DNA of 64,000 nt from Metallosphaera sedula DSM 5348 (GCF_000016605.1 NC_009440.1:806001-870000); one strand, 5' to 3'. Shown: positions 39,396-54,987, counted from the first letter of the stretch. Translations and numbers: made by a program. Notes: generated by a model not told the origin, from the sequence alone.

Positions 39396-39824
39396 ATGCA
39401 TGAGTGGTCCATAGCTGATGCTATCTTGCGTACGGTAGAGGATATGATAGAGGGAAAGGAGGGAAAAGTCTCCAAAATAGTACTGGGTATTCCTAGCATA
39501 TCTTTTCTGGACGTGGAGATATTAACTGAAGCATTTGATGAACTTAAGAAAAACACAAGTTTAAGCAACTCTCGGCTGGAGGTTAAGATAAGGGCGCCAG
39601 TTTTTACATGTCACAGGTGTGGATCTACCTTCTCCTTAGACGAGATAAAATCTCAAGTAGACGGCTTGAGGTCTGAATTTGGCGAGGAGTATCCGCTTCA
39701 TCTCATTCCCATGTTAGGCCCTTCGTTCTTAAGATGCCCCCACTGTGGTTCCCACGACATTTCGGGGAACGATGACATAGTTGTGGAGAGGGTTGAATTT
39801 GAACCCACTGTTGAACCTAGCTAG
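39396..39824 (+). CDS. hypA: hydrogenase nickel insertion protein HypA
   Basis: 142 residues. It starts MHEWSIADAIL, where His2 and Glu3 form the nickel site; archaeal HypA proteins often have W at residue 4. The zinc domain has two Cys pairs, CHRCGSTF near residue 71 and CPHCGSHD near residue 113, separated by an archaeal-type insert (about 40 residues). It delivers nickel to the hydrogenase large subunit. It is the first gene of a plus-strand group with the MinD-type hypB substitute and hypF. Confidence 0.93.
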   Translation: MHEWSIADAILRTVEDMIEGKEGKVSKIVLGIPSISFLDVEILTEAFDELKKNTSLSNSRLEVKIRAPVFTCHRCGSTFSLDEIKSQVDGLRSEFGEEYPLHLIPMLGPSFLRCPHCGSHDISGNDDIVVERVEFEPTVEPS

Positions 39825-40551
39825 GAAAAAACTTCAGGGAAGGAAGACCATCGCAGTCATGAGTGCTAAGGGAGGAGTTGGAAAGAGTGTAGTCTCCTCT
39901 TTACTTGCCATCGCGCTTTCGAGGGAGTATAACACCTTACTTATTGATCTTGACATACACACTATGGCACTCCCAAAGCTGTTCGGATATGAGGGATCGC
40001 TTCATGAAGTTAGAAAAGAGGGTATAGTACCTTTCACGATAAATGAGAAATTGAAATTACTAACGTTGGGTGGAGTGGTCAGGAATAAGACGGTGATATT
40101 ACCGGGGAGGAACCAGGAAAAGGTTATGGAATCTCTATTGGGAACAGGGGCCATTAATGAGGAGCTAGTAATCTTTGATTTACCACCTGGTCTAGGGGAC
40201 GAAATCTTAGTACTGGAGAAGGTTACGGATTTCCTTCCAGTGGTTGTTACCAATCCGTCAGAGCTCTCAGTTAAAGTAGTGAAGTATCTTCTGGATTACC
40301 TAGCCGAACTGGGAAAAGATCCATTACTAGTTGCGAATATGTCATATATTAAATGCGGGTCACAGATAATTAGGCCTTTTGGAAATTTGAGTCTACATGG
40401 AATGGGGAGAAAGCAACCTCAAATAATTGAGCTACCAATGGATGAAACTCTAAATGAATTTATAGGTAAGATCCATGAGTACAAAGGGGAACTATTGGAT
40501 GGAATAAATAAGCTGAGTATAATGATAAACGAGAGAATGCACCAAACCTAG
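39781..40551 (+). CDS. MinD/Mrp-type ATPase, HypB substitute
   Basis: About 256 residues of the ParA/MinD family. The deviant Walker A is MSAKGGVGKSVVSS near residue 30, an A' motif is LLIDLDIHTMALP and Walker B-like is VIFDLPPGLGDE. The standard GTPase HypB (GxxGxGKT) is not seen anywhere in the window; in Thermococcus a Mrp/MinD ATPase takes over that role next to HypA. This gene overlaps hypA by 44 bases and lies before hypF, matching that arrangement. Start codon uncertain: TTG at 39781, 39799 or 39811. A Cys (KCGSQ) could bind metal, but that is speculation. Confidence 0.8.
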   Translation: MWRGLNLNPLLNLARKKLQGRKTIAVMSAKGGVGKSVVSSLLAIALSREYNTLLIDLDIHTMALPKLFGYEGSLHEVRKEGIVPFTINEKLKLLTLGGVVRNKTVILPGRNQEKVMESLLGTGAINEELVIFDLPPGLGDEILVLEKVTDFLPVVVTNPSELSVKVVKYLLDYLAELGKDPLLVANMSYIKCGSQIIRPFGNLSLHGMGRKQPQIIELPMDETLNEFIGKIHEYKGELLDGINKLSIMINERMHQT

Positions 40552-40704
40552 ATATGCCCTGGACAGAATTCGTAGCTTCTCAAACGAAGGACTCGCGTTG
40601 GGCGCTATTTGAAAGGGGCTTAATCTCGCCTCCTAAGATATACTGACACAACGTTCCTTACTGAGTGTTGATTATATTATCTACCACAAATATACAATCT
40701 TAAT

Positions 40705-42936
40705 GTGAAATCGTTTAGAATAACAGCATCGGGGATAGTCCAAGGAGTGGGATTTAGGCCATTTGTATTTAGGACTGCATTAAAAAGCGGTGTAAGTGGA
40801 TTTGTAAGAAATCTGAGCGGAAGTGAAGTGGAAATTGTAATCCAGGGAAGTCAGGATAGTATTTCAAAGTTCTTCTCGCTGTTCTTCCTAAATCTCCCTC
40901 CCCAGTCCAGATTAGAGCAAATCACAATAACGCCACTTGAGGGAGATATTCTTCAAGGTTTTAAGATACTAAAGAGCGAGAAAATGAGATACGAGGCAAG
41001 TCAAATCCCCCCAGATTTTTCAGTGTGCTCGGAATGCATCAGGGAGGTTTTAGACCCTGGGAACAGACGTTATAGATATCCTTTTAACAGTTGCGTAAAT
41101 TGTGGCCCTAGATTTTCCATGATGAGGAAGGTTCCATATGATAGGGAAAACACAGCTATGGTGGAGTTCCCCCTATGCGACGAGTGTGCCCAGGAATACA
41201 ATGATCCAGATAATGAAAGGAGATTTGACGCCCAAGGTATAAGTTGTCCAAAATGTGGACCTAGGCTTTATATAGAGGATATGCGCGGTAATCGTTTAGA
41301 AGGCGACCCCATAAAACTTGCTGGAAAGCTATTGACAGAGGGTAAAATCATCGCCATTAAGGGAATAGGAGGATTTCATATAGCATGCGATCCATTTGAT
41401 GACGATGTTGTTCTTACATTGAGAGCCAGGAAGGGAAGGCCCTCTAAGCCCTTTGCAGTTATGTCGATTTCCAGTGATATTATATCAAATTTCGCTGAAA
41501 TAAATCCGCTTGAAAAGGATATCCTAGAATCCCCTGAAAGGCCAATAGTCCTCCTCAAGAAGAGGGAGGATTCGCCGATCTCCAAGCACGTATCTCCTGG
41601 ACTCGATAGGGAAGGCTTTTTCCTATATTACACGCCACTACACTACATGTTACTTAGCGAAGTTAAGGGTAACACGCTGGTAATGACTAGTGCCAACAGA
41701 CATGGGTATCCCATGTGTACTACCGAGTCTTGCGTTAAGGAAAAACTCAGTGGTATAGTAGACTACATGCTCTATCATGATAGAGAGATAGTGAACAGGG
41801 TGGACGATAGCGTCATTAAATTCGCAGGAAATCGTCTCCATATTCTGAGGAGAGGAAGGGGTTACGCACCTCTCTGGATAAGAATGAAAAGTAAGTTTAA
41901 AACCCCCGCAATAGCCCTAGGTGCTGAACTCCAAAATGCTGGCGCACTCATGTTTGACGACAAGGTTATATTAACTCAATATGTGGGCGACACTGATAAA
42001 CTGGAAAATCTTCAAGAAATGGAGAAAATGCTCAACTTCCTAATGAGCACGTATGATGTAAGGCCTAGGGTAATCCTTGTGGACAAGAACCCTGGATATC
42101 AGACTAGATACGTTGCCAATAGGTTATCGGAGAAGTTCTCGGCTGAAATAGTCGAGGTACAACATCATTTTGCCCACGCACTAAGCGTGGCTGCAGATCA
42201 TGGCTCAGACGAAGGTGTGGCTATCGCCATTGACGGTGTCGGATACGGAGACGATGGTAACGCTTGGGGAGGGGAGATTTTGCTATTTACAGGCAGCGAA
42301 TACGAAAGGTCCTATCATTTGAAATACGTTCCATATCCTGGGGGTGACGTTAATGCGCTGAGACCTAGGAGAATGTTGGCCATATTCCTTTCTCAGGTAA
42401 TGACATTAGAGGAGGCCGGGAAAATTGCAGGCCTCAATGAGAATGAGGTAATAATGCTGAGAAGCTCTCTGAGAGGAAATAGAATATACACCTCAAGTAC
42501 CGGTAGATTCCTGGATGCTGTTTCGGCCTTCCTTGGCGTATGTGATAGGAGGACATACGAGGGAGAGCCTGCGATAAGGTTAGAGGCCTCAGCTAGCAAT
42601 GGAAAGTTGCTGGACTTGGATATACCTGTAGTAGGTAACGAGATAGACACTCTCAAGGCGTTCGAGTGGCTTATCTCTGAAGAGGGTAAAGTAAACGACA
42701 TTGCGTTAACAGTTCAGTATAGGCTAGGTGAAGCCTTAGCGAAGGCTGCATTGAAGCTAAATCCTCAAGTTATCCTGGTCTCAGGAGGCGCAGCTGTAAA
42801 TGAGTATATTTTAAGGGGCTTAAGAGAAAATTCGGAAGGCATAGAGGTGATAACGCCAAGGAGAGTTCCATCTAATGATGGGGGGATTGCATTGGGGCAA
42901 GCCCATTATCTACTGCAGCGGGATAGAGCTAATTAA
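40705..42936 (+). CDS. hypF: carbamoyltransferase HypF
   Basis: 743 residues, start GTG 40705. The acylphosphatase domain opens with GIVQGVGFRPFVFR. Two zinc fingers follow: CSECIREVLDPGNRRYRYPF and CDECAQEYNDPDNERRFDAQ with NCGPRFS and CPKCGPRL. Next comes a YrdC-like domain (ALKA-like with KPFAVM), then the Kae1-like carbamoyltransferase domain with VQHHFAHALSVAAD and IDGVGYGDDGNAWGGE, ending GGAAVNEYI. It makes carbamoyl-AMP and transfers it to HypE as a source of cyanide ligands. Length is typical (about 750). Confidence 0.97.
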   Translation: MKSFRITASGIVQGVGFRPFVFRTALKSGVSGFVRNLSGSEVEIVIQGSQDSISKFFSLFFLNLPPQSRLEQITITPLEGDILQGFKILKSEKMRYEASQIPPDFSVCSECIREVLDPGNRRYRYPFNSCVNCGPRFSMMRKVPYDRENTAMVEFPLCDECAQEYNDPDNERRFDAQGISCPKCGPRLYIEDMRGNRLEGDPIKLAGKLLTEGKIIAIKGIGGFHIACDPFDDDVVLTLRARKGRPSKPFAVMSISSDIISNFAEINPLEKDILESPERPIVLLKKREDSPISKHVSPGLDREGFFLYYTPLHYMLLSEVKGNTLVMTSANRHGYPMCTTESCVKEKLSGIVDYMLYHDREIVNRVDDSVIKFAGNRLHILRRGRGYAPLWIRMKSKFKTPAIALGAELQNAGALMFDDKVILTQYVGDTDKLENLQEMEKMLNFLMSTYDVRPRVILVDKNPGYQTRYVANRLSEKFSAEIVEVQHHFAHALSVAADHGSDEGVAIAIDGVGYGDDGNAWGGEILLFTGSEYERSYHLKYVPYPGGDVNALRPRRMLAIFLSQVMTLEEAGKIAGLNENEVIMLRSSLRGNRIYTSSTGRFLDAVSAFLGVCDRRTYEGEPAIRLEASASNGKLLDLDIPVVGNEIDTLKAFEWLISEEGKVNDIALTVQYRLGEALAKAALKLNPQVILVSGGAAVNEYILRGLRENSEGIEVITPRRVPSNDGGIALGQAHYLLQRDRAN

Positions 42937-42958
42937 TCTTAAAACACCATCATAATTC

Positions 42959-43471
42959 ATGAGAGTGCTCATAGCTGGGGTTGGAAATATTTTCATGGGA
43001 GATGATGGATGTGGAAGTATCGTGGCTGAGGCCCTTAAGGGTTGCGTTAGTGGGGCTGAGGTAATTGATATTGGAACGGGTGGACTTCCGCTCACGGATT
43101 ACTTGGAGAACTTTGACGTTGTTATACTAGTAGACGCTGCCGTAATTGATGAGGATGTTAAAGTTATAGAAGTTACCGATGAGATGAACCCAGATAGTGT
43201 AGGGGAAGGAGTTCTGTCCCTTTTATTCGGGGGATCGCATGGTCTGGGGGTAATGGATTTACTTAATTTCTTAAAGATAAGGGAGAGAAAACCCAAGGTC
43301 CTAATAGTGGGGTGTAGGCCCATAAGCGTGGAGGTTAGAATGGGTCTTTCGGAGGGTATGACAGCGAACTGTCTTAAGGCGTTGGATGAGATCGCAAGGT
43401 TAGGCTCAAAATTTAATGTGGAAATAGACCTGGAAAAAGCTAGGACAAAACTGTTGGGTTTGAAGGGTTAA
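42959..43471 (+). CDS. hydrogenase maturation protease, M52
   Basis: 170 residues of the HycI/HyaD type. The GVGNIFMGDDGCG motif at residues 7-19 carries the conserved acidic residue near position 16, and VILVDAAVI and the GGSHGLGVMDL segment supply the second Asp and the His that bind nickel in this family. It trims the C-terminal tail of the hydrogenase large subunit after metal insertion. It lies 22 bases after hypF on the same strand. A second, shorter protease gene is directly downstream of hynL, so the two may have different targets. Confidence 0.9.
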   Translation: MRVLIAGVGNIFMGDDGCGSIVAEALKGCVSGAEVIDIGTGGLPLTDYLENFDVVILVDAAVIDEDVKVIEVTDEMNPDSVGEGVLSLLFGGSHGLGVMDLLNFLKIRERKPKVLIVGCRPISVEVRMGLSEGMTANCLKALDEIARLGSKFNVEIDLEKARTKLLGLKG

Positions 43472-43707
43472 TCTAGATCTCTCTTCAGTTGATTTAGTAG
43501 AGATAGAAGGCTTTCTTCTATCTTATCTGGGCTTATCTTTTTAATGGCGTAACCGCCGTGAACTAGTACGAGATCACCTTTCTTAGCATCCACAAGCCCC
43601 AACTCTATTTCCCTTCTAATTCCACCGAAGTCAACCACTGCAGTCTCGCCGTTCGCTTCCACTATTAAGCCCACAATAGCCATGTCGTAGGGGTCGTACT
43701 CAGACAT
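43468..43707 (-). CDS. HypC-like protein lacking the N-terminal cysteine
   Basis: 79 residues from ATG 43707, which overlaps the upstream hypC by 8 bases. It has the HypC OB-fold pattern AIVGLIVEANGETAVVDFGG, IRREIELGLVDAKKGDLVLVHGGYAIKKI, but where HypC needs Met-Cys at the N-terminus, this has extra residues and then MAIVG. The catalytic Cys2 that binds iron and HypD is therefore absent. If the start is ATG 43683 (the MAIVG Met), the Cys is simply replaced by Ala. It may bind HypD without catalysis or have another partner, such as the large-subunit paralogue. Confidence 0.75.
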   Translation of the reverse strand: MSEYDPYDMAIVGLIVEANGETAVVDFGGIRREIELGLVDAKKGDLVLVHGGYAIKKISPDKIEESLLSLLNQLKRDLD

Positions 43708-43930
43708 CTTGAACCACTCTCGCCAATTCTTCCTCATATTTGAGCATCTCTCTAAACTCTTCCTCGCTTATTTTCTCCATTATCATTCCATAACTAACCA
43801 CGACATAATCTCCCTCTTTAATGTCTTCAAAACCGTTAAGTAAGACAGGTTCAATGACATTGTTTCCATAATCGACGAAAGCTATAGGATCCTCTACCTG
43901 TACCACTCTTGCTGGGAAACTTAGACACAT
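43700..43930 (-). CDS. hypC: HypC
   Basis: 76 residues. It begins MCLSFPARVVQVED, with the essential Cys2 of HypC that shuttles the Fe(CN)2CO unit between HypD and the apo-large subunit. The remaining pattern FVDYGNNVIEPVLLNGFEDIKEGDYVVVSYGMIMEKIS is the small OB fold. It is the first gene of a two-gene minus-strand unit with the Cys-less relative. A third HypC is in the hypCDE cluster at 53394. Confidence 0.92.
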   Translation of the reverse strand: MCLSFPARVVQVEDPIAFVDYGNNVIEPVLLNGFEDIKEGDYVVVSYGMIMEKISEEEFREMLKYEEELARVVQDV

Positions 43931-44194
43931 TACTTTTTACTTCTAGTTTAAGGATAAAAGCTTTCTTTGAGGTTGTATCATCTGACATTGTTTTCAAATT
44001 TTATCTAGAGTCTAAAGTCGATTAACTACCTTTAGCCTGTCATTATGTATGAGACATAACTACGCTTATGACGGTGTTAAGGCCAGGAATATAATATAAA
44101 TTTGCTGCACTATGAGAAGAATAGGTGTACAATTTTAGTCTCGTCGAATCTCATATAGAAAACGTTAATTTACCTTTTCGCCTAATGTTAATTC

Positions 44195-45211
44195 ATGTCT
44201 ATTTTTAGACCAATGATTCTAGGTAATTTGAAGAGGGGTCTTTTGGGCCTTGGAATAAGGAAATTACCCCTCATAGGCGGGCATAAGCTGTTGTACACTT
44301 GTAACCTTAGATGTGAGATGTGTCCCTTCTGGAGAAGAAAGGATGAGAAACTGCTCTCTCTAGAGGAGGAAATTTTAATGTTGAAATCGCTGGAGAGAGC
44401 CGGCGTCTTATTCATGGGGTTTGAGGGAGGGGAACCGTTATTGAGAAAAGACCTGGAGCAAATTCTGGAGGAGTCGTACATAAGGTTTCATACTTCTCTT
44501 GTGACCAATGGATGGTTACTAAAGGAAAGGGTTAGAAGCTTGAGTGAATATCTGGATCATTTATTCGTATCCATTGACGGAATAGGTGAAGTACATGATA
44601 AGATGAGAGGCATTCCAGGATCCTTTGAGAGAGCTGTAGAGGGTATAAGGGAGGCCAAAAGATATTTGCCCGTGTCAATTAGCTTCACAATAACCAAAAA
44701 GAACATAGATCAAGTCAGGGATGTCGTGGAACTCTCGAGAAAGCTCGGTGTGGGAATAAGCGTCCAGGTGGAGTATGACTATTCCACTGCTGAGAAGTTG
44801 AGCCCGGATAAGAGCCAACTTTACGACGCACTGAAGATGCTCATCGAGCTGAAAAGAAGAGGTTATCCAATAGTTGAGTCGCTAGACTACTTTGAAGCTA
44901 TACTTAACTCTTGGTACAATCGAATACCGTGGAAATGTAAGCCTTGGCTGACCGTGAACGTGGATCCTCAAGGAAGAATAGTTCAACCATGTTACGTGCT
45001 AAACGAGTATAGTGGAAAATATAAGGTCTGGGAGATAGACATAGTTAAGCTGTGGAATACGTACCCCTGGAGTGAATATGAAAACTGTAACAAATGCGCT
45101 CTGGCCTGCTATCTTGAACCATCTCTGTTCAGTTGGTCTAACAGAGAAATGGTAAAGGAGAAAATAGTAAATAACATGGTAAGCTATGTTCGCGATCTTA
45201 TACATATTTAG
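44195..45211 (+). CDS. radical SAM protein in the hydrogenase cluster
   Basis: 338 residues. The cluster motif is C36-x3-C40-x2-C43 (CNLRCEMC), followed by GFEGGEPLL (SAM-binding GGE) and SIDGIGEVHDKMRG with the barrel strands of the radical SAM fold. The C-terminal part holds CKPWLTV, QPCYVL and NCNKCALAC, which suits a SPASM or Twitch type auxiliary cluster. It sits between hypC and the large-subunit paralogue. It is not a HydE, HydG or ThiH by its context-free sequence that I can tell; the role in hydrogenase assembly is a guess from position. Confidence 0.85.
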   Translation: MSIFRPMILGNLKRGLLGLGIRKLPLIGGHKLLYTCNLRCEMCPFWRRKDEKLLSLEEEILMLKSLERAGVLFMGFEGGEPLLRKDLEQILEESYIRFHTSLVTNGWLLKERVRSLSEYLDHLFVSIDGIGEVHDKMRGIPGSFERAVEGIREAKRYLPVSISFTITKKNIDQVRDVVELSRKLGVGISVQVEYDYSTAEKLSPDKSQLYDALKMLIELKRRGYPIVESLDYFEAILNSWYNRIPWKCKPWLTVNVDPQGRIVQPCYVLNEYSGKYKVWEIDIVKLWNTYPWSEYENCNKCALACYLEPSLFSWSNREMVKEKIVNNMVSYVRDLIHI

Positions 45212-45340
45212 TTTTGTCACGAAGGCCACGCCTTACACTTATCTTTTTTAGCGTAAATATCGTAGTTAACGTTGAACATCTTTCTTCAGTACCTTTAAAA
45301 CCAACTGTATAGTTTAGGAGATACTGGCGCCATTCCCAAC

Positions 45341-45352
45341 ATTTATAAAATA
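45341..45352 (+). promoter_or_regulatory. TATA box of the large-subunit paralogue gene
   Basis: TTTATAAAAT at 45342-45351 lies about 25 bases before ATG 45372, consistent with a leaderless transcript starting a few bases ahead of the start codon. Confidence 0.5.
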
Positions 45353-45371
45353 GTTCCCAAATAATACTTTA

Positions 45372-46511
45372 ATGTTAAATCCATTAGCATTAGATACTAT
45401 CGATCTAAAGGTGAAAATTAGCGATGGTAAGGTAGTATATGCCAAGTCATCTGGAAATAAACTGAGGGGATACGAAAGGATGTTTATCGGTAAGGATCCG
45501 AGGGAACTCCCAGATATTATCCCTAGGGTACTCTCTACATGCGCGCAGTCCCATACCTTTGCCTACATCAAGGCTGTGGGAAACAATAACTTGGATCTTA
45601 TAGGAAATCTAATGGTGAGTCTAGAGATAATCGAAAGTAACATAAAACATCCCTACGCGTATTGGCTGCCGTATTTGGGTGGGGTAGAGTATGAGTTTCC
45701 AGGGGGGAAGAAATTCAGGAAGGTATCCCACGCAAGCAGAAAAATAAGGGCTATAATGGAGAAAATAGGCGGAAAATGGCCCTCAGTGGACTACGTCAAA
45801 AAGGGCACTAAGCTATCCTTTACCAGGGAGGAACTGAAGGATGTAATAAGTTTCCTCGAAAGCGACATGCTGGGCATGAGTCTCCAGGACTTCTTGGGTA
45901 TTAAAGAGCTAGAGGAGCTTAGAGGGGATATTAGATATCTTAATGCGGAGTACTGGAGAGCCGGTTTAGGAAGATACGCGTCAGCGTGGGCCCAACTGGA
46001 TGTCTCCAAGATAGATGACCAGGGTGATAGGGTATTGTATGACGGGACATTGGTTGAAGTTGGACCGCTGGCACAAGCTCTCACATTTGACGACATGATA
46101 GTTAAACTACATAGGGATATGGGACCATCGCCTCTATTGAGGGAATTGGCTAGAGTTAGGGTAGCAGCTAAATTGATACTTGGTTTACAGGATCTAGAAA
46201 TTGAGTCCGAAGGATTGCATATACGCGGAGATGGAATTGGATATCTAGAGTCCATAAGGGGAGTTCTAGTTCATCAGGTGAAGGTAAAGGACAAGGTGGT
46301 TGAGTACAGAGTGATTCAACCCACAACATTTAATGCCTCTCCTGGAGGAGCGTTGGAAAATGCCGTTTTGGGAATTCCGGTTCGTAACTATAGAAATCCG
46401 TGGGAGATTTCCCTAGCCGTGAGCTCCTTGGATTCCTGTTTCATTACTAATGTTGAGGTTTATCTGGATGACAAATACCTATTTACCAAGAGAGTAGGAG
46501 GGTTTTGCTGA
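45372..46511 (+). CDS. degenerate [NiFe] hydrogenase large-subunit paralogue, HupK/HoxV-like
   Basis: 379 residues with the large-subunit fold. The L1 motif, normally R-x-C-x2-C, reads RVLSTCAQSH: Cys57 aligns with the second Cys and the first is Leu54. The L2 motif, normally D-x-C-x2-C-x2-H, reads LDSCFITNVE: Cys356 stays, the second Cys is Thr359 and the cleavage-site His is Glu362. So only two of four Ni-Fe ligands remain, and no processing tail exists; the protein ends in a Cys (residue 379). Pairing with the genuine large subunit is implied by GGVEYEFPGG, RVAAKLI and NASPGGALEN blocks. HupK/HoxV proteins of bacterial uptake hydrogenases are scaffolds for the Fe(CN)2CO centre, and I infer a similar role. 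Confidence 0.8.
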   Translation: MLNPLALDTIDLKVKISDGKVVYAKSSGNKLRGYERMFIGKDPRELPDIIPRVLSTCAQSHTFAYIKAVGNNNLDLIGNLMVSLEIIESNIKHPYAYWLPYLGGVEYEFPGGKKFRKVSHASRKIRAIMEKIGGKWPSVDYVKKGTKLSFTREELKDVISFLESDMLGMSLQDFLGIKELEELRGDIRYLNAEYWRAGLGRYASAWAQLDVSKIDDQGDRVLYDGTLVEVGPLAQALTFDDMIVKLHRDMGPSPLLRELARVRVAAKLILGLQDLEIESEGLHIRGDGIGYLESIRGVLVHQVKVKDKVVEYRVIQPTTFNASPGGALENAVLGIPVRNYRNPWEISLAVSSLDSCFITNVEVYLDDKYLFTKRVGGFC

Positions 46512-46595: not shown

Positions 46596-46973
46596 CTAGT
46601 GAGCCCTAGACATTTTCTCCACAATTCTCTGAGCAACCAGTTTAATACCCTCAAAGGTAAGCGTAATAGTGTTTTCATTTACCTCAATTAGTCCTGCCGA
46701 GAGTAAGTCCTTGAGGGTATTCTCTCCTATCTCTTCCTTTCTAGTCTCCTTATTAAATGCCATGTTCATATAGATGGTCTGTAACGCGTCAAGGAGACCA
46801 TAGAGTTTTGAGAGTTCCCTAAGTCCCTTTTCGGTTAGGTATAAAAATTGGCCCTCTTGTTTTATTAATCCATCTTCTATCAACTTTTCCACATCTACCT
46901 TTTCCATGACTAGCTCCTCCCTCCTTCTAGGAGCCACATTTATTTCTTCGAGAGCAAGCAGCTCAGAAAGCAT
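46596..46973 (-). CDS. winged-helix-like protein downstream of the short protease
   Basis: 125 residues. Two repeats of a winged-helix-like pattern are visible: VEKLIEDGLIKQEGQFLYLTEKGLREL and LKDLLSAGLIEVNENTITLTFEGIKL, each ending in a beta hairpin and a helix. There is no Cys-based metal site. It is the last gene of the hynS-hynL-protease unit and overlaps the protease gene by 34 bases. It may sense or regulate hydrogenase genes, or be a protein-interaction module. I do not recognise a specific family. Confidence 0.65.
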   Translation of the reverse strand: MLSELLALEEINVAPRRREELVMEKVDVEKLIEDGLIKQEGQFLYLTEKGLRELSKLYGLLDALQTIYMNMAFNKETRKEEIGENTLKDLLSAGLIEVNENTITLTFEGIKLVAQRIVEKMSRAH

Positions 46974-47275
46974 CTTGCCACCTCCCTGTACTCAGGGGAG
47001 AACGCTACTATTGTTATCGCTCCCTTCCTTCCCCTTAACCTTGCTCTAATTAAGTAGTCTTCCAACTCGGAGTAGGAAAGTATTCCAGGATAAAGGTCCT
47101 TGAGTCCCACAACTAAGAACTTAACTGACTTTGAGGAATCTACTATAATTACTTCATCGTCCATAAAACCTTCAAGGGCTTCCAAGTTAGATCCAACAAA
47201 TGTACCTCCGAACTCTTCCACAATCTTCCCCGCATCGTCACCGAAGATCTCGTTTCCTATACCTACGAGCTTCAT
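46940..47275 (-). CDS. short hydrogenase maturation protease-like protein (M52)
   Basis: 111 residues from ATG 47275; the ATG overlaps the hynL stop (ATGA). The motif VGIGNEIFGDDAGK near residue 3-16 is the M52 opening, and VIIVDSSKSVKFLV holds the second Asp. The family is usually 150-170 residues, and the His-containing segment is hard to find here: no H is present in the protein from the chosen start. It could still process HynL, being translationally coupled to it, or it may bind nickel or the C-terminal tail without cleaving. A longer frame to 47335 is out of the question because it overlaps hynL. Confidence 0.7.
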   Translation of the reverse strand: MKLVGIGNEIFGDDAGKIVEEFGGTFVGSNLEALEGFMDDEVIIVDSSKSVKFLVVGLKDLYPGILSYSELEDYLIRARLRGRKGAITIVAFSPEYREVARCFLSCLLSKK

Positions 47276-48813
47276 AGTCTCATCGAGAGTATCTCTTTTC
47301 CGCCGTCTAAGACATGAACGTTGCATACCATACATGCATCATGTGACCTGACAATATGAGCTACCTCTATGGGATTGTTGGGATTCTCCACCTCTGTTCC
47401 CTGAAGTGCTATGGATAAATGGCTTGGGTTACCGAAGGGATCTTCTGGCCCCATGTTAATCTGAGTTGGTGTAACGACCTGGTAGTTCTTAATTTTTCCC
47501 TCTTCTATCACGAGCCAGTGACCTAGGGAACCTCTGGACGCCTCAACCAGACCATAACCTCTTCCAGATAGTTTTTCCTCAGGTTTTATGTACGTAATTT
47601 CATCGTACTCGTAGCTTTCCAACTCCTCTCTCATGATCTCATGGATTCGGGCGAGTCTAACAATTCTAGCTATTTCCCTAGCGAGAACGCTGGTTCCAAT
47701 CCTATAAACTAGATCTGTCATTAATGGGTCTCCTGCTACTACCATCATTGCTAAGGCTCCAACTTCCGGAGCCACGTACTTCCCACCTAGTTTATATCTA
47801 AAAGCCTTGGTAAAAGTGTATTTTCCCTTGGATTCCGGTGGTAGGGGCGTTGTTTCGCCATTATAAGGATGAAGCCCAACCTTATCTCCCTGTTCATAGG
47901 AGTAAAAAGAGTGGGAAACAAACTCCACTATGTTCTCCTCTTTAATTTGATGAATCTCGCGAGTCCTAAGATCCAGTAAACCCTCCCTAAACCTCTTTTT
48001 TTCTACGTGTGATGCGGGGTCATAATGTTCTGGAAGCGTCACATGTCCGTAACTCATGAGGTACTGTGAGCCACTACCTATCTTATCCCATTTCATTTCT
48101 AGCCCGTAGTTCCAGATCTTGGAAATATCTCCATTGGGATAGTCCTTGGCCCACTGGTCCAGATCCCTTTTGCTCTTCACTTGGAGAAACTGGTCTAGGG
48201 GACCTCCCAGAATCACTTTTTCCAGGAACTCTGCAGTAATAGATGCGAGAATAGATTTGGCCTTTATTATGTCATTGCTGAGCGGATCAGTGGTAACGCC
48301 TCCTGGAACCATAGCTGAACCATGTGGCCACTGTCCACCAAATATTGCATAGATCTCGGTGTATCTTTTAGACCAGGCTACTGCCTGTTTGTATGACTGA
48401 CCTAGATATGGAGCCCATCTAAGCACTATGTCCCTGTAAAACCCCATCTTTTCATATTTCAGATTGACCGTATCTATAAGGAACATGAGGTAGGTATGTC
48501 TGACGTCATTTTGTCCCATTTCGGCTAACGTCATCACATTTCTCAACCTCACAGCGTTGGGCGGAACACTCGCCCCATAGGCCATCTCTAGGGCCTTCGC
48601 CGCAGAAAGCAGATGTGAACCCCCGCATATACCACATATTCTCGGGGTTATAACCAAGGAATCCATGGGGAATTTTCCCTTAAGGATTATCTCTATTCCC
48701 CTGAACAGCCTAGACATGGGAAAGGCCTTTACAACTTTCTTTCCCTCAAAAACTACCTTAAGGTCCAAGTCCCCTTCTACCCTATTGAGTGGACTTATTA
48801 CTTTCTCATTCAA
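47272..48813 (-). CDS. hynL: [NiFe] hydrogenase large subunit HynL
   Basis: 513 residues. Ni-Fe ligands are Cys60 and Cys63 (RICGICGGSH) and Cys494 and Cys497 (DACMVCNVH). After His500 a 13-residue tail (VLDGGKEILSMRL) is expected to be removed by a maturation protease. The usual blocks NRVEGDLDLKV at the N-terminus and GALAMMVVAGDP in the middle are present. It uses H2 oxidation chemistry typical of uptake enzymes. The small subunit lacks a Tat signal, so the enzyme is probably cytoplasmic or on the inner membrane face, in line with the Group 2e type of aerobic Crenarchaeota. ATG 48813 overlaps hynS by 8 bases. Confidence 0.95.
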   Translation of the reverse strand: MNEKVISPLNRVEGDLDLKVVFEGKKVVKAFPMSRLFRGIEIILKGKFPMDSLVITPRICGICGGSHLLSAAKALEMAYGASVPPNAVRLRNVMTLAEMGQNDVRHTYLMFLIDTVNLKYEKMGFYRDIVLRWAPYLGQSYKQAVAWSKRYTEIYAIFGGQWPHGSAMVPGGVTTDPLSNDIIKAKSILASITAEFLEKVILGGPLDQFLQVKSKRDLDQWAKDYPNGDISKIWNYGLEMKWDKIGSGSQYLMSYGHVTLPEHYDPASHVEKKRFREGLLDLRTREIHQIKEENIVEFVSHSFYSYEQGDKVGLHPYNGETTPLPPESKGKYTFTKAFRYKLGGKYVAPEVGALAMMVVAGDPLMTDLVYRIGTSVLAREIARIVRLARIHEIMREELESYEYDEITYIKPEEKLSGRGYGLVEASRGSLGHWLVIEEGKIKNYQVVTPTQINMGPEDPFGNPSHLSIALQGTEVENPNNPIEVAHIVRSHDACMVCNVHVLDGGKEILSMRL

Positions 48814-49774
48814 TCCAATCTCCCTTCTTTCTTATCAGTGGTCTCTCCAAGAACTGTGGAGCAGCTCCCCGAGCTATCGCTGCAAAGGTTACATATGCCC
48901 CCTTGGAAACACCCAAGGGTAATCTCCTTGGAATTCCTGATCTGTTCTTCTCTGTTTTGAAAAAGTTAAAGGTTGGAAAATCAAATTCTGTACATCCCAT
49001 ACACGGTGTGCCAACCCTGGTCTTACTGCTCTGATTATTCCAGAGAATGTTATTGCACGAGCTTCTAGTGTATGATCCCCTACATCCTAGATCGAAGAAC
49101 AGACATCCTTCTTTATGTCCAAATTCCTTAGTTGATATTTTATAAGTGAAATATGGTTGTCTGGGACAACCGAATTGAGTAGTTGTGGCGTAAAATATTC
49201 TAGGTCTATTAAATTCATCTAACATTTCTTGATTCATCTCTCCCCTTAGGATGAGTGTCAAGGTAGTGATAAGCCACTCAGGATGAACTGGACAACCTGA
49301 GAGATTTATAACTGGAAGCCCCGACTTACACCTGAAATCCTTTCCTAAGAAACCGCTCATCTCCTTTCTGTGAAATTGCAGCCCGGTTGATTCGGTTGGA
49401 TTCGGATCTGCTGCAGGTATTCCACCAAAGCTGGCGCAGTCACCCACAGCCACAATGTAGTTTGCTTGGGGTGCAATTTCCCTGACCCACCACATCATTG
49501 GCTTTCCAGCAAACATATTAAATGTGCCCTTTCCTGCAGGTCCCCTCACAATAGAACCCTCAAAAAGGAGAATATCTAGATTTATTTTCCCCTCGATTAT
49601 CGATTCTAATATTTTCTTTAAATCCCTGCCACATTCCTGTGAGAGCGACGGATGCCAGAGAAGTTTCACATTGTTCTGATAGAGGAAGGATAGTATATCG
49701 GGATCAGATGCGTTTAGGACAGAGAGAGTATTCCCTCCACACGCTCCCCCTTGTAGCCACAAGAGGTTCTTCAT
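48806..49774 (-). CDS. hynS: [NiFe] hydrogenase small subunit HynS
   Basis: 322 residues; the FeS electron relay. The proximal cluster motif at the N-terminus normally reads C-x2-C (GGCGGCT); here it is GGACGGNT, so Cys12 is followed by Asn15 instead of the second Cys. The other proximal Cys are in CASFGG and LSGCPVHPEW. Distal/medial ligands are in FGHKEGCLFFDLGCRG, SSCNNILWN and TPCMGCTEFDFP. There is no twin-arginine signal at the N-terminus, so it is not exported. It opens the unit hynS-hynL-protease-wHTH. Predicted class: Group 2e-like. Confidence 0.94.
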   Translation of the reverse strand: MKNLLWLQGGACGGNTLSVLNASDPDILSFLYQNNVKLLWHPSLSQECGRDLKKILESIIEGKINLDILLFEGSIVRGPAGKGTFNMFAGKPMMWWVREIAPQANYIVAVGDCASFGGIPAADPNPTESTGLQFHRKEMSGFLGKDFRCKSGLPVINLSGCPVHPEWLITTLTLILRGEMNQEMLDEFNRPRIFYATTTQFGCPRQPYFTYKISTKEFGHKEGCLFFDLGCRGSYTRSSCNNILWNNQSSKTRVGTPCMGCTEFDFPTFNFFKTEKNRSGIPRRLPLGVSKGAYVTFAAIARGAAPQFLERPLIRKKGDWIE

Positions 49775-50094: not shown

Positions 50095-50589
50095 ATGTCA
50101 AATAGAGACGATGACTACAGGGAAGGAGTAGAAAAATTAAAGGAGATAGTTGCATACTTAAATTCGACAGGAATTCTAGATAGTGTATTGGATTTTGTTA
50201 GCGACGAGGAGAAAGTTAGATCTTTTCTGCGATCAAGTACATATAGGGCCATCGTCGAAATGCTCGGCACCCTTAAGGACATGATAGATAGGGGTGAGGT
50301 AGACTCTGAGGACTTTACCAACGGGTTAATCGCCATCGCTAAGCACTTAGACAAGATAGGAAAGGTAATAACAATTCTCGACAAGAATGGCGTACTAGAT
50401 GTAATAACTTCAGGTCTCTCAAAGGCTGCCGAAGCTATGGTTAGGAGTAATAGACAATCTAACATTGTGGAATTCCTAGCGTCCCTTGATGATCCAGATG
50501 TTAAGAAGACCTTAGCCTATTTGAGGTACATGTTAAAGGAACTTGGTAGTTCGGCGGAACCAGTGCTTAATAACGGTCAACAGAAATAG
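50095..50589 (+). CDS. DUF1641 family protein
   Basis: 164 residues, all helical. The C-terminal FLASLDDPDVKKTLAYLRYMLKELGSS matches the DUF1641 signature (L-x-D-P-D-V-x-x-x-L-x-x-L). Members of this family are found near hydrogenases and formate dehydrogenases in bacteria and archaea; the function is not established. It is divergent from hynS and probably co-regulated with it. Confidence 0.8.
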   Translation: MSNRDDDYREGVEKLKEIVAYLNSTGILDSVLDFVSDEEKVRSFLRSSTYRAIVEMLGTLKDMIDRGEVDSEDFTNGLIAIAKHLDKIGKVITILDKNGVLDVITSGLSKAAEAMVRSNRQSNIVEFLASLDDPDVKKTLAYLRYMLKELGSSAEPVLNNGQQK

Positions 50590-50933
50590 TCCTTCGGGGA
50601 ATTAGGGCTAATCAAGTTCGAGAGTTCCAAGAGAATTAACATCGCATTCTTAATTGCCCTTCCTTGGACAGTGAGAGAATAGATAGTGGCAACAGGCCTA
50701 CTATTGACAACCTCTCTCTGCACAATACCGTTATGTTCTAGCTCCTTGAGTCTTATGGATAGAGCCCTTTGTGTCAATCCATCTACCTTTCTTAGTATTT
50801 CGCTAAATCTCATTTTTCCATATTTGTCTAGAAGTACTAAGATACTTAACGTATATTTCTTGGTTATCAAATCGTATACTGCGGGTGTATATGTGGTGCA
50901 AAGATCTCCGTCATCTTTGAGGCAACAATCCAT
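50577..50933 (-). CDS. HxlR-family transcription regulator
   Basis: 118 residues. ITKKYTLSILVLLDKYGKMRFSEI and LRKVDGLTQRALSIRLKELEHNGIVQREVV are the winged-helix pattern of HxlR proteins, with two N-terminal Cys-rich segments (MDCCLKD, DLCTTY) that might sense redox or metal state. It converges with the DUF1641 gene with a 13-base overlap and lies inside the hydrogenase island, so control of hyn or hyp genes is likely but unproven. Confidence 0.82.
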   Translation of the reverse strand: MDCCLKDDGDLCTTYTPAVYDLITKKYTLSILVLLDKYGKMRFSEILRKVDGLTQRALSIRLKELEHNGIVQREVVNSRPVATIYSLTVQGRAIKNAMLILLELSNLISPNSPKDYFC

Positions 50934-50961
50934 AGGTTACAACTGGTTAACAGCTTAAAAA

Positions 50962-51303
50962 TTATAGCTGAGAATGCTGGATATTGTTTGCATCAAGATC
51001 GGAGTATTTTGCAAAGATATTGTCTAACCTGTTTACTATTTCAGCGATTCTTTCCGTTTTCCCATTGGAAACTAATGAGAACATTTCGTCTAAGATATCA
51101 GAGAAAATTGTGTAAAGACCAGACTCTTCTATCAGTTTAACTACATCCTCCCTTAACTCGATTTCCGGATCTAGGATATCCATTATGGCCAAGGCTAATC
51201 TTATGACGCTACTTAGCAAGAATGATAAGGCGATAACTTCGTCATCGCTTTCCTTGGCAAATTGAAGAATGAATTTAGACAGTAAATAATTATATTGATC
51301 CAT
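50962..51303 (-). CDS. helical protein, last gene of the hypE-hypD unit
   Basis: 113 residues, all helical. No metal motif or catalytic residue pattern was seen. Its ATG at 51303 overlaps the MIP18-like gene by 14 bases. The segment ILDEMFSLVSNGKTERIAEIVNRLDNIF is faintly like DUF1641. The position as the end of an operon with hypE, hypC and hypD indicates a hydrogenase-related role, but the function is unknown. Confidence 0.55.
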   Translation of the reverse strand: MDQYNYLLSKFILQFAKESDDEVIALSFLLSSVIRLALAIMDILDPEIELREDVVKLIEESGLYTIFSDILDEMFSLVSNGKTERIAEIVNRLDNIFAKYSDLDANNIQHSQL

Positions 51304-51571
51304 TGTTGCCTAGCCTCTTAATTCTTTCATTTATCTCCTTCCCCAAGAAATATCTCTCTACAATTACTTCAGCTCCCTGTATCCTCCTGGCTATATCCAT
51401 TGCCACCTTTATTACAAGTATAGGTGGAACAAACGGAGACGGAGGAGTGTAAATAATCCTCAGCTTTTCAGATCTTTCTATCCTCAACAGTCCCAGTTTA
51501 ACGGCAGGAACCCCGCTCTCAGGCTCTATTACATGACTCAAAGCTTCAATGAGATCCAGGTCTTCCCCCAA
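51290..51571 (-). CDS. MIP18/SufT-like (DUF59) protein
   Basis: 93 residues. LIEALSHVIEPESGVPAVKLGLLR is the opening of the MIP18 family (V-x-D-P-E-x-G ... V-x-L-G-L), which assists Fe-S cluster assembly. The typical Cys in the P-G-C-P loop is replaced by Phe here (TPPSPFVPP), so cluster binding through that Cys is lost. It overlaps the aldolase-like gene upstream by 26 bases, within a hypE-led operon. A role in cluster loading of hydrogenase or HypD is conceivable. Confidence 0.75.
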   Translation of the reverse strand: MGEDLDLIEALSHVIEPESGVPAVKLGLLRIERSEKLRIIYTPPSPFVPPILVIKVAMDIARRIQGAEVIVERYFLGKEINERIKRLGNNGSI

Positions 51572-52265
51572 ACTTCACCGCCCTTATATACCTAGCTCCA
51601 GGTTTTCTTAAATCTGTTTGCGAAAGCTTGTACTTAATTCCACCCAAGGCCAAAGACGCTACGTTAAATCGTGACCATTCTTCCATTATCTCTGCGAAGG
51701 CCCGCGCCTCATGAACACAAGCGCCCACTGAAATGATACCGTGATTCATCAGGATCACGATTCTAGGTACTTTGGCCCCCTCTCCTCTTACTGCCTCTCC
51801 CACATTTCTAGCCAACTCCACTGTCCCTGGATGGGAATACGGTATTATCTTTATATCTCCCAGTATAGCCGCAGCCTCGCCATGTGTAATTTCAAGATAT
51901 CCGGAAAGGGCAGCTCCCATGGTATAGGGAGGATGGGCATGAATAACCGCATTGACGTCTGGTCTATTCTTGTAAACCTGGAGGTGCATATTTACTTCAA
52001 TGGACGGCCTCAAGTCTCCCTTTATAACATTCCCATCCAAATCAATCTGTACTAGATCCTCAGGTTCAAGTTCAGATCTGGGATAACCCGAGGGGGTTAT
52101 CCATATTTTATCCGAACCTGGTAGTCTGGCGCTTTGATTACCCCCCGCATTACTCACCATCCCCCTCCAATACATTGTCCTCACGCTGAGAACTAGGGCT
52201 CGTTTAAGCTGTTCATCATTAGTTTGGCAAAGTCTACAATACGTGTTACCTAACATGTATACCAT
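51546..52265 (-). CDS. class II aldolase/adducin-like protein
   Basis: 239 residues from ATG 52265, chosen because a strong GGAGGT Shine-Dalgarno lies 6 bases upstream; longer frames overlap hypD. The zinc ligands are in VIHAHPPYTMGA (two His) and LMNHGIIS (third His), with GNQSARL and WITPSGYPRSEL as substrate-binding blocks. The family includes L-fuculose-phosphate aldolase and methylthioribulose-1-phosphate dehydratase. Its presence between hypD and an Fe-S assembly-like gene is unexpected: either it is a passenger gene or it supplies a compound for maturation. Confidence 0.85.
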   Translation of the reverse strand: MVYMLGNTYCRLCQTNDEQLKRALVLSVRTMYWRGMVSNAGGNQSARLPGSDKIWITPSGYPRSELEPEDLVQIDLDGNVIKGDLRPSIEVNMHLQVYKNRPDVNAVIHAHPPYTMGAALSGYLEITHGEAAAILGDIKIIPYSHPGTVELARNVGEAVRGEGAKVPRIVILMNHGIISVGACVHEARAFAEIMEEWSRFNVASLALGGIKYKLSQTDLRKPGARYIRAVKFGGRPGSH

Positions 52266-52269
52266 TTTT

Positions 52270-53397
52270 TTACCTCCTACATCTAGGGCTAACATTAACA
52301 ATTCTATGCGTTGCCCAGATCCAACAGGTTCCTTCCTGTGATACCATTGGAGCTCCCTTCGGATCCTCAGGCTTACATGTTTTCCCATACAATGGACACT
52401 CTGGAGGATCTATAAGTCCCATAACGACCTCTCCACATCTCGCGCCAGCTACATATTCGTCCTTAGATTTCGTCCTGTCCTTTAAGCCGTATTGAACTCT
52501 GGCATCCTTTTTACTGAACTCCTCCTTTAATCTGAATCCCGCCTTAGGGAAAACCGCAACTCCTCTAACATATCCGTCCTCTAGATCGAAAACTCTTTCC
52601 ATAACCTGTTGTGCCTTCACATTACCTTCCCAAGTTACTGATCTGGTGTATTCATTCTCTATCTTTGGTTTACCCTCATCAATTTGCTTTAGAATCATGT
52701 AAATGGACATAAGTACATCTATGGGTTCAAACCCAGTAGCTACCATGGGTTTTTTAGATCTCAGGAAATACTCGTAATAAGGTCTAAGTCCAGTCACAGT
52801 TACCGAATGACCCGCAGATATGAAGGCATCTATCCCTAAGACATTCGAATCCATTACTGAGCCCTGAATAGCCGGGGTATATCTATAGGAAACAAGGAAG
52901 CTCAGGTTGTCCGGAACACCCTTCATCATTTCAAAGGCAGTGGCCGGGGCCGTAGTGTCCATTCCCACTGCGAAGAAAAGGAAATCCTTGTTTGGTTCCC
53001 TTCTAGCCATCTTCACCGCATCTTGCACCCCATATATCACTCTCACATCTCCTCCCATAGCTCTAGCCTCCTCTAGAGACATTTTTGTACCCCTGGCTCT
53101 GCTCATGTCACCATAGGTCGTTACCACTACGCCATCCATGGCGAGCTTGACAGCGTCATCTATGTCAGTAGCAGGCGTTATGCAGACAGGACAACCAGGG
53201 CCTGCCCTAACCTCCACGTTTTCAGGTAGGAGAGATCTTATACCATAGTGGGTTATTGTCCACTCATGGCTTCCACACACGTGCATTATCATTATGTTTT
53301 CCTGGATTTTCTTCGCCAATTCCTCTATTCTCAATCTTAGGGCTTTAGCTAGTGTCGGATCCCTGTAATACTTTAGCAATGACAAGTACTCGCTCAT
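52270..53397 (-). CDS. hypD: hydrogenase maturation protein HypD
   Basis: 375 residues. Cys41 in MHVCGSHEW binds the iron, Cys69 and Cys72 (GPGCPVC) form the redox pair, and the C-terminal [4Fe-4S] ligands are in GARCGEVVMG, PECPLYGKTCKP and QEGTCWIWA. HypD carries the Fe(CN)2CO intermediate with HypC and HypE. The ATG at 53397 overlaps the hypC stop by 4 bases (ATGA). Confidence 0.97.
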   Translation of the reverse strand: MSEYLSLLKYYRDPTLAKALRLRIEELAKKIQENIMIMHVCGSHEWTITHYGIRSLLPENVEVRAGPGCPVCITPATDIDDAVKLAMDGVVVTTYGDMSRARGTKMSLEEARAMGGDVRVIYGVQDAVKMARREPNKDFLFFAVGMDTTAPATAFEMMKGVPDNLSFLVSYRYTPAIQGSVMDSNVLGIDAFISAGHSVTVTGLRPYYEYFLRSKKPMVATGFEPIDVLMSIYMILKQIDEGKPKIENEYTRSVTWEGNVKAQQVMERVFDLEDGYVRGVAVFPKAGFRLKEEFSKKDARVQYGLKDRTKSKDEYVAGARCGEVVMGLIDPPECPLYGKTCKPEDPKGAPMVSQEGTCWIWATHRIVNVSPRCRR

Positions 53398-53666
53398 TCG
53401 CTACCACCTATAATTTCGTAAAAATCTTGTTTCTTCTTCTCGTGTGACAGATCCTTGGTCATTTCGTTCCATATCTCTATCGTCCTTCTGGCCTCGTCCT
53501 CGTCTATTACTTGTATGGCATAACCTGCATGAACCAGCACGTAGTCCCCTATCTGAGCATTAACCAGTGACAGGAGAATATTGTCCCTTATTGTTCCGTT
53601 TCCGAAGTCTATCTTCCCAAAATCACCTGATATTTCGATAACTTTTCCAGGAAAGGCAACACACAT
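53394..53666 (-). CDS. hypC: HypC (hypCDE operon copy)
   Basis: 90 residues from ATG 53666, which gives MCVAFPGKVIEISGDFGKID with the essential Cys2; a longer frame to 53744 adds a nonsense N-terminus. GGTGAGTGAAATG contains the Shine-Dalgarno and start codon. It is longer than the other HypC because of a helical C-terminal extension (WNEMTKDLSHEKKKQDFYEI). It passes the iron unit to HypD and the large subunit. Confidence 0.93.
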   Translation of the reverse strand: MCVAFPGKVIEISGDFGKIDFGNGTIRDNILLSLVNAQIGDYVLVHAGYAIQVIDEDEARRTIEIWNEMTKDLSHEKKKQDFYEIIGGSE

Positions 53667-53667
53667 T

Positions 53668-53919
53668 TCACTCACCATAGACCGATTTAAGTTCCTCTTT
53701 CTCAGCTTCGCTAAGCTCGTAGAGGGGGAAGTAGTCCTCGTCAAAATATATCATCGGAGCGTGGCAATGTTTAGGCATCTCAATTTCCTTACCGCATACT
53801 TCACATCTCAATATTTCCTTCTTTCTGAAGTTACCCCTTTGAAGGTATTTCATGTTCATTCCACAATGCGTAGGGATCGGAAGTTCGGACTTGCATATAA
53901 TGCATATCAACTTCTCCAT
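53668..53919 (-). CDS. zinc-ribbon-like protein with two copies of a C-x2-C / P-x-H-C unit
   Basis: 83 residues from ATG 53919, preceded by GGTGAGTGAA just as for hypC. Two similar units follow: CIICKSELPIPTHCGMNM and CEVCGKEIEMPKHCHAPM. Each has C-x2-C, then P-x-H-C and a Met a few residues on. This could bind two zinc or other metal ions, including Cu or Ni given the Met and His. The third part is an acidic helix. It sits between hypE and hypC in the same operon, so a metallochaperone or regulatory role in maturation is plausible. Confidence 0.65.
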   Translation of the reverse strand: MEKLICIICKSELPIPTHCGMNMKYLQRGNFRKKEILRCEVCGKEIEMPKHCHAPMIYFDEDYFPLYELSEAEKEELKSVYGE

Positions 53920-53928
53920 TTCACTCAC

Positions 53929-54987
53929 CTAGCATATTCTAGGAACTGGATCCCCTAAGGGTCTTCCAACATACCTGTTTCCCCCGACCACAGTCTCCAT
54001 TATTACCCCCTCTAAATCCTTTCTGACCTCTCCTATTATTGTTGCGTCCTTCCCAAGCGGATCTGAATGTAACGCGTCCATAACGTCCTTAACATATTCA
54101 GGCGAAACTGCTAAGACGGCCTTTCCCTCATTACCCAACTCTAGAACGTCCATTCCTAGAAACTCGACGGCAGCTCTGACCTCATCCTTCACTGGGATGT
54201 CACTCTCCCTTATGAAGATTCCAAGTCCAGACTTTTCCGACCAGTCCTGAAGCAGATCTGCCAGTCCTCCTCTCGTTGGATCCTTGGCATCAGCTATTCC
54301 TCCTACTTCCAGTAGGTTCATGATCATCTTATTGAGAGGGGCAACATCGGACATGACATTTGACTCAAATCCCACTCCTTCCCTTGAAGATAGGACCGCT
54401 ATGGCATGATCCCCAAGGGTACCGGTGACCACAATTTTATCTCCATCCCTAAGGTTAGTGGGAACTAACCAGCGGGAAGGTTGCCTACTTTTCCTCAAGG
54501 TCTCAATGTTGTGATCCAATTGCCTAGGTCTTGTACCTATTCCGGCGGTGTTAATGACAATTTTATCTAAGTTTCCCCTCTCCATGACCTTCGTGTCTCC
54601 AGTAACTACGTGGACGTTCGCTTCCTCAGCAGTCTTCTTAATGCTTTCAACTATCTTCTCCAACATATCCTTGGGGAATCCTTCCTCTAATACTACTCCA
54701 AGACTCAGGGCCTGAGGATCTCCCCCCATCATCGCTATATCATTTACTGTGCCACTCACGCTTAATCTTCCTATATCTCCACCTCTGAAGAAAATGGGCC
54801 TAATGACGAACGAATCCGTAGTGAACACTATTCCATTAACCACGGCTGCATCGTCCATCATTTCTAGTCCCACCTCGCCAAATCCATCATTTAGCTTCAA
54901 AAAGACGTCCCTTATCAGGGAATGCATGTACGTCCCTCCAGCCCCGTGGAGTAGGGTAATTACGTTCTTTCTATCGGGCAGTTCCAT
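53929..54987 (-). CDS. hypE: hydrogenase maturation protein HypE
   Basis: 352 residues from ATG 54987 (TTG 54990 adds one). The PurM-like fold opens LLHGAGGTYMHSLI and FTTDSFVIRPIFFRGGDIGRL with the ATP-binding Asp residues. The C-terminus is PVPRIC, with the terminal Cys that is converted to thiocyanate and supplies cyanide. It is the first gene of the operon HypE-zinc protein-HypC-HypD-aldolase-MIP18-helical protein. Confidence 0.96.
   Translation of the reverse strand: MELPDRKNVITLLHGAGGTYMHSLIRDVFLKLNDGFGEVGLEMMDDAAVVNGIVFTTDSFVIRPIFFRGGDIGRLSVSGTVNDIAMMGGDPQALSLGVVLEEGFPKDMLEKIVESIKKTAEEANVHVVTGDTKVMERGNLDKIVINTAGIGTRPRQLDHNIETLRKSRQPSRWLVPTNLRDGDKIVVTGTLGDHAIAVLSSREGVGFESNVMSDVAPLNKMIMNLLEVGGIADAKDPTRGGLADLLQDWSEKSGLGIFIRESDIPVKDEVRAAVEFLGMDVLELGNEGKAVLAVSPEYVKDVMDALHSDPLGKDATIIGEVRKDLEGVIMETVVGGNRYVGRPLGDPVPRIC

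Follow-up and report, generated by a model that had tools for sequence, protein, structure and literature searches.

The window analyzed here, a stretch of 64,000 nucleotides comprising bases 806001-870000 of one 2,191,517-base contig of the thermoacidophilic archaeon Metallosphaera sedula, holds a hydrogenase island that extends from hypA (39396) to hypE (54990). Its genes and their coordinates agree with an earlier description made from the DNA without database searches (the sequence-only reading), which scans with Pfam and TIGR family profiles confirmed almost completely. On the plus strand, hypA (39396..39824; PF01155, E=2e-21) is followed by hypB (39781..40551; PF10609, E=7e-32; true start uncertain), an order common to M. 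sedula and its closest relative, and by hypF (40705..42936), which has orthologues, 59-86% identical, near the hys genes of relatives. On the minus strand lie hypD (52270..53397; PF01924, E=2e-124), hypC1 (53394..53666; PF01455, E=8e-23), which is canonical and starts MCVAFPG, and hypE (53929..54990), whose product ends in PRIC and has orthologues 50-92% identical; in published naming hypE is msed_0933, adjoining msed_0934. HypB was singled out earlier as a MinD-type substitute, and PF10609 does identify a ParA/MinD-type ATPase, albeit of an already-known archaeal type: Thermococcus HypB is an Mrp/MinD ATPase, M. sedula likewise has its ParA/MinD ATPase gene next to hypA, and with no difference evident between the two its HypB appears ordinary. 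Hydrolysis of ATP by an archaeal HypB is cited in PMC12134894. The genome has a single hypD, and no hypD-type maturation set other than that of the island was found in it. PMC11018855 credits M. sedula with just two hydrogenases, Hys of group 2e and SUL2; directly past the window end are genes for the small, large, membrane and Fe-S proteins of a SUL2-type enzyme, which the sequence-only reading missed.

The large and small subunits of Hys are encoded by hysL (47272..48813, minus strand; PF00374, E=4e-73) and hysS (48806..49774, minus strand; PF01058 and PF14720), and the group 2e assignment is taken from PMC11018855. These subunits occur together with a HysM-like DUF1641 protein, the combination by which Hys is recognized in Sulfolobales; group 2e Hys of Acidianus brierleyi and group 2a Huc of Mycobacterium have the same hysL, hysS and HysM set, HysM being a modelled homologue of HucM (PMC11018855). 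The gene in question, hysM (50095..50589, plus strand), was proposed to encode a DUF1641 protein; its product scores marginally below the family cut-off (19.8 vs 21 bits) but fits the published HysM, and at the sequence level it has no clear match among solved structures, only a weak one to ForE1. In relatives, hysM is kept near hysL and near the gene for an HxlR-type regulator (50577..50933, minus strand), which the profile search bears out (PF01638, E=5e-20). The passages covered of the A. brierleyi Hys account (PMC11018855) contain no discussion of extra maturation genes. In that organism the 2e enzyme is the least abundant of four hydrogenases; a search of mainly open-access literature found no transcriptomics of the M. 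sedula hydrogenases.

Two M52 proteases had been assigned to the island, one of them now well supported and the other a weaker call. M52a (42959..43471, plus strand) is an M52 (HycI) endopeptidase by PF01750 (E=5e-10); M52b (46940..47275, minus strand) is short and M52-like, and its start, as proposed, overlaps the stop of hysL. It matches no Pfam family, is marginally similar to M52a (hhalign probability 26%, E=7e-4) and retains GIGN..GDD, but the M52a motif SHGLG was not seen in it. HysL carries a 13-residue C-terminal extension in three Metallosphaera, in which the M52b gene overlaps hysL; in two other genomes the last residue of the protein is the His that closes the ligand motif, and in four it has a five-residue tail. 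These varied tails suggest that the need for a final cleavage depends on lineage. Next to M52b is a winged-helix gene (46596..46973, minus strand; HTH_45, E=1e-6) that was absent from the earlier description. Among the relatives surveyed, M52b and the winged-helix gene are found only in Metallosphaera.

The sequence-only reading suggested that every extra gene, the radical SAM gene included, could belong to one crenarchaeal variant of the maturation route, and it named conservation with the hydrogenase in relatives as the deciding observation. We looked in 31 Sulfolobaceae genomes for HysL, HypD, the class II aldolase-like protein, the large-subunit paralogue, the radical SAM protein and HypX, examined stretches of 20-60 kb that surround the hys genes of ten relatives, and extended the comparison to 300 Thermoproteota and 250 Nitrososphaeria genomes. 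The list splits gene by gene: the paralogue, hypC2, hysM and the HxlR gene track hysL, and the aldolase, zinc-ribbon and MIP18-like genes track hypD, a result in favor of a maturation variant; the radical SAM gene, which is not linked to hydrogenase, fails the comparison, and M52b and the winged-helix gene have a Metallosphaera-only distribution. A radical SAM protein is indeed encoded in the island (44195..45211, plus strand), its TIGR03961 score of 673 bits lying well over the cut-off of 306. Among the 31 Sulfolobaceae, 18 exceed that cut-off, more than half of them with no hypD match at all; in other genomes the gene is located away from the hys genes, and it is broken in M. javensis, the closest relative, although the hysL of that species is 91% identical to that of M. 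sedula. These observations rule out a part for it in the maturation route: the gene is a passenger, outside the system. The confinement of every extra gene to 16 kb is what speaks for a single route; given the hypD-less genomes, the broken M. javensis copy and the restriction of M52b and the winged-helix gene to one genus, we consider a single route embracing all of them extremely improbable. The island is nonetheless real and can largely be explained: it follows known maturation routes in a new, archaeal form and adds one apparently undescribed module.

The paralogue gene (45372..46511, plus strand; NiFe large-subunit match, E=3e-17) encodes a 379-aa protein ending in GGFC. Alignment upholds the earlier observation that two ligands are missing, the N-terminal first Cys being replaced by Leu and the C-terminal second Cys by Thr. 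The two that are kept, the N-terminal second and the C-terminal first Cys, are identical to those kept by six HoxV/HupK proteins, and a profile match to HoxV/HupK spans the full length (E=1.4e-16). In a tree the paralogue groups with HoxV/HupK (support 93/93), with long branches involved. Because of this shared Cys pattern, full-length match and tree grouping, we liken the paralogue to HoxV/HupK. It could instead be an independent duplicate of HysL, serving as a sensor or an inactive subunit, a reading that draws on its stronger profile similarity to HysL (E=3.5e-35 vs 1.4e-16) and on an AU test that does not reject grouping on the HysL side (p=0.14); the exact HoxV/HupK ligand pattern and the reduced length weigh against such a duplicate, as does the second HypC gene found beside the paralogue in all its genomes, which is expected of a HupF/HupK pair, and we judge it unlikely. 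The predicted structure (mean pLDDT 64) is too poor for placing the Cys residues. On present evidence the paralogue looks like a HoxV/HupK-type scaffold, with putative common ancestry.

The paralogue was found in nine of the 31 Sulfolobaceae, the same nine that hold more than a short hysL remnant; in one of them (G307) paralogue and hysL are both split, and in two genomes in which hysL is a remnant (G298 and G304) no paralogue was found. In every paralogue-bearing genome hypC2 (43700..43930, minus strand in M. sedula; PF01455, E=4e-18) lies next to or near it. The island was correctly described as encoding three HypC-type proteins, one of them Cys-free: all three match HupF_HypC. The N-terminal Cys2 of HypC is required for Fe binding; HypC1 and HypC2 keep it, and the third, the 89-aa product of hypC3 (43468..43737, minus strand; PF01455, E=2.7e-17), starts YDPYDMA and has no N-terminal Cys, nor do its aligned orthologues. 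Orthologues with such a Cys-less start occur in M. javensis, M. yellowstonensis and genomes G088, G313, G314 and G315, and further homologues in G298 and G304.

In bacteria, HoxV is a carrier of Fe(CN)2CO, and reports of HupF/HupK are confined to hydrogenases synthesized while O2 is present. The systems of Cupriavidus necator and Rhizobium leguminosarum (HoxV/HupK with HoxL/HupF) resemble the M. sedula pair in having a 340-400-aa paralogue with the same two Cys kept and, alongside it, a second HypC-family protein in clusters of O2-exposed hydrogenases. They differ in that M. sedula HypC2 (76 aa) is not as long as HupF, which has a C-terminal domain, that the paralogue of the archaeal pair ends in GGFC and is tied to group 2e, and that no HupG/H/I/J or HybE neighbors were seen beside it. 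The bacterial counterpart removes the paralogue/HypC pair from the steps that had been suggested as undescribed for bacteria, leaving the aldolase/zinc-ribbon module to sustain that suggestion. We posit, as a second layer besides the standard Hyp set, that Fe(CN)2CO would be built on HypC1-HypD and then passed to the HoxV/HupK-like paralogue, whose two retained Cys may hold it; HypC2, as the HoxL/HupF-like partner, would move it from there to apo-HysL, and this Hys-specific relay could shield Fe(CN)2CO in oxic cells. An O2-protective relay of the HupF/HupK type has been stated to be confined to bacterial clusters (PMC3534401); the M. sedula pair, if it is such a pair, would carry that relay over to Archaea. 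In mainly open-access literature we found no paper that describes a link of HupK/HoxV with Sulfolobales.

The remaining genes surround hypD. The aldolase-like gene (ald; 51546..52265, minus strand), named as class II from the sequence and so identified by PF00596 (E=8e-48), starts 4 nt downstream of the hypD stop; the zinc-ribbon gene (ZnR; 53668..53928, minus strand), between hypC1 and hypE, encodes a double zinc ribbon with two CxxC...HCxxxM-type motifs; and a MIP18-like gene (51290..51571, minus strand) adjoins ald. All nine Sulfolobaceae that have a 2e/SUL-type hypD share the gene order hypE-ZnR-hypC-hypD-aldolase-MIP18-like. Aldolase orthologues (at least 70%) occur in exactly these nine of the 31 genomes, one further genome having a generic match (36%); they are absent from the two genomes with only a 1g-type hypD, and the three group 1g hyp clusters examined contain no aldolase, ZnR or MIP18-like gene. 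Farther afield, HypD is present in 199 of the 300 Thermoproteota and generic aldolase homologues in about half of the 300. When the Thermoproteota HypD proteins are ordered by how closely they match that of M. sedula in identity, those encoded next to an aldolase gene take the first ten places; neither aldolase nor ZnR occurs within 1.5 kb at the next-nearest hypD loci examined (L186-L205, about 49-57% identity). In four genomes outside the Sulfolobaceae, all Nitrososphaeria (the class of ammonia-oxidizing archaea), aldolase matches cover the N-terminus, and there the gene adjoins hypD. A motif scan of 84,980 species, which was not exhaustive and missed some gene-bearing Sulfolobaceae, yielded 11 loci confined to Metallosphaera and Nitrososphaeria. 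At each of them hypD is the neighbor of the gene or, where the gene is a second copy, belongs to the same module. The ammonia oxidizers have two forms of the protein, AldA and AldB; AldA is present in eight of 250 Nitrososphaeria genomes, with hypD adjacent in all eight. ZnR keeps the hypE-ZnR-hypC order in Sulfolobaceae and in several ammonia-oxidizer loci and stands beside hypE in others. The aldolases of Sulfolobaceae and ammonia oxidizers are only about 37-47% identical, with hypD adjacency kept, and this conserved adjacency could in part have been inherited as one block transferred with hypD.

Restriction of the extra genes to group 2e, which the sequence-only reading proposed to check, does not hold for ald and ZnR, which are tied to hypD instead. 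A 2e-specific aldolase is ruled out: the gene goes with hypD and is still present in G298, whose hysL is a remnant. That genome retains the module together with a SUL1-type hydrogenase, which is intact, and a 1g-type one, Hys and SUL2 being only relics in the stretches read, and because of this the module is not strictly tied to aerobic-type hydrogenases. We found no description of this module, or of a link between hyp genes and a class II aldolase, in mainly open-access literature.

The fold predicted for the aldolase-like protein (mean pLDDT 80) is that of class II aldolases; pyruvic oxime dioxygenase and NovR are among the matches. With enzymes such as fuculose-phosphate aldolase and pyruvic oxime dioxygenase it shares the fold and the metal-site residues, aldolase activity itself being putative; unlike them, it has extra motifs (N-terminal GNxxCxLC, here GNTYCRLC, and C-terminal KFGGR, besides an internal GACVHEARAF), is strictly linked to hypD, and is split into AldA and AldB in ammonia oxidizers. 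Cys 10, 13 and 183 are invariant in all 20 aligned aldolase-like proteins. The full metal site (H109, H111, H175 and E90) is kept in the Sulfolobaceae protein and in AldB; in AldA, H111 is gone and so, in most proteins, is H175, a pattern implying a split, in ammonia oxidizers, of what is combined in a single Sulfolobaceae protein. An ordinary aldolase acting on a sugar phosphate or metabolite, left in the hyp operon by history and with no role in maturation, would account for the complete class II Zn site in Sulfolobaceae, for fuculose-phosphate aldolases being the closest solved structures by sequence, and for the generic homologues in about half of Thermoproteota genomes. It would not readily explain the family-specific N-terminal CxxC and C-terminal KFGGR, a hypD adjacency that outlasts such sequence divergence between lineages, an AldA that holds its position and motifs without the Zn site, or the absence from genomes without this hypD type, bar the one generic match; we regard an ordinary aldolase as rather improbable. 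Lying right behind hypD here and next to it at every ammonia-oxidizer locus checked, ald instead makes a good candidate for a step, so far undescribed, in hydrogenase active-site assembly in oxygen-exposed archaea.

As a third layer, the hypD-linked ald/ZnR module would act on the HypCD scaffold itself, and our leading guess for its chemistry is that it may make or deliver CO as the ligand (or a precursor of it) in oxic cells, as is done in aerobic bacteria by the CO producer HypX, a formyl-THF decarbonylase. Aerobic archaea, among them ammonia oxidizers and atmospheric-H2 users like M. sedula, need the same cofactor, and HypX was not found in the 31 Sulfolobaceae, in which one weak partial match covered the hydratase-like part only. 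The likeness to HypX lies solely in the proposed role, that of a factor beyond HypA-F in O2-exposed organisms; HypX combines formyl-THF transferase and enoyl-CoA hydratase-like domains, whereas ald has a class II aldolase fold and sits behind hypD. We know of no precedent for CO chemistry on that fold. An O2-dependent reaction is considered because the superfamily includes Fe(II) dioxygenases, pyruvic oxime dioxygenase being Fe(II)-dependent. That ald (AldA/AldB in ammonia oxidizers) and ZnR form an archaeal counterpart of HypX, a CO maker in oxic cells that possibly uses O2, is a tentative proposal, put forward with considerable doubt. The pair could also serve HypD as a chaperone, structural or redox, that protects its [4Fe-4S] cluster, brings in iron or reduces its disulfide: the N-terminal Cys pair and Cys183 are invariant in 20 of 20 proteins, AldA lacks the Zn site, Sulfolobaceae have the MIP18-like neighbor, and the fold is common to adducin, a cytoskeletal protein. 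Retention of a Zn-site-intact version (AldB or the single Sulfolobaceae protein) at the loci that could be read suggests chemistry instead, and we treat a chaperone function as conceivable but doubtful.

Taken with the radical SAM gene as a passenger, the three layers (the standard archaeal Hyp set, the paralogue/HypC2 relay and the ald/ZnR module) would make the island the maturation center for two aerobic [NiFe]-hydrogenases, Hys and SUL2. The comparisons themselves show gene linkage, co-occurrence and co-loss, the ligand and other residue patterns with the retained Zn site, the fold, and the absence of HypX from the 31 Sulfolobaceae; every transfer and chemical step in this explanation is inferred, and as a whole it seems to us reasonably probable.

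The MIP18-like assignment of the sequence-only reading is only partly upheld: the protein falls below the PF01883 cut-off (E=0.03) and lacks the Cys-Pro motif, and two orthologues come closer (E=8e-4 to 2e-3), still below threshold. Beside it is a gene for a small helical protein (50962..51303, minus strand), overlooked in that reading. Homology of this gene to a helical gene beside ZnR in ammonia oxidizers is unsupported (hhalign probability <1%); in M. yellowstonensis the small helical protein is fused to the MIP18-like protein.

Every protein of the HoxV/HupK-like large-subunit paralogue whose C-terminus is shown ends in GGFC (last M. sedula codons at window positions 46497-46508), and the terminal Cys of this motif could provide a third Cys ligand. 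The C-terminal tail of HysL, the group 2e [NiFe]-hydrogenase large subunit (47272-48813), differs in length among orthologues, their comparison revealing a 13-residue tail with an overlapping M52-like gene in Metallosphaera, the five-residue tail MLKLI in the Sulfolobaceae genomes G307 and G313-G315, and no tail in G088 and G244 of the same family.

A Cys-free HypC-family protein, HypC3 (43468-43737), starts with YDPYDMA and is kept across the Sulfolobaceae that have hydrogenase genes. In most relatives, the genes for a 327-aa membrane protein, which has no Pfam match, and a 522-aa permease-like protein (both within 55204-57967) lie close to those of Hys or of SUL2, the second hydrogenase. Decay of Sulfolobaceae hydrogenase systems is seen repeatedly: hysL and the paralogue are split and hypD is missing in G307 (locus L052), G298 (L055/L133) holds relics of Hys and SUL2, and G304 (L054) lacks hypD and has hypF, hypC3 and hypA.

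In the hyp modules of ammonia oxidizers, a gene adjoining the zinc-ribbon gene encodes a conserved helical protein of ~111 residues (loci L158:7208-7543, L161:7327-7698 and L160:2870-3235), for which a Pfam search gave no match. The MIP18-like and small helical genes, which occupy 50962-51571 in M. sedula, are fused into a single reading frame in M. yellowstonensis (G167, locus L040).
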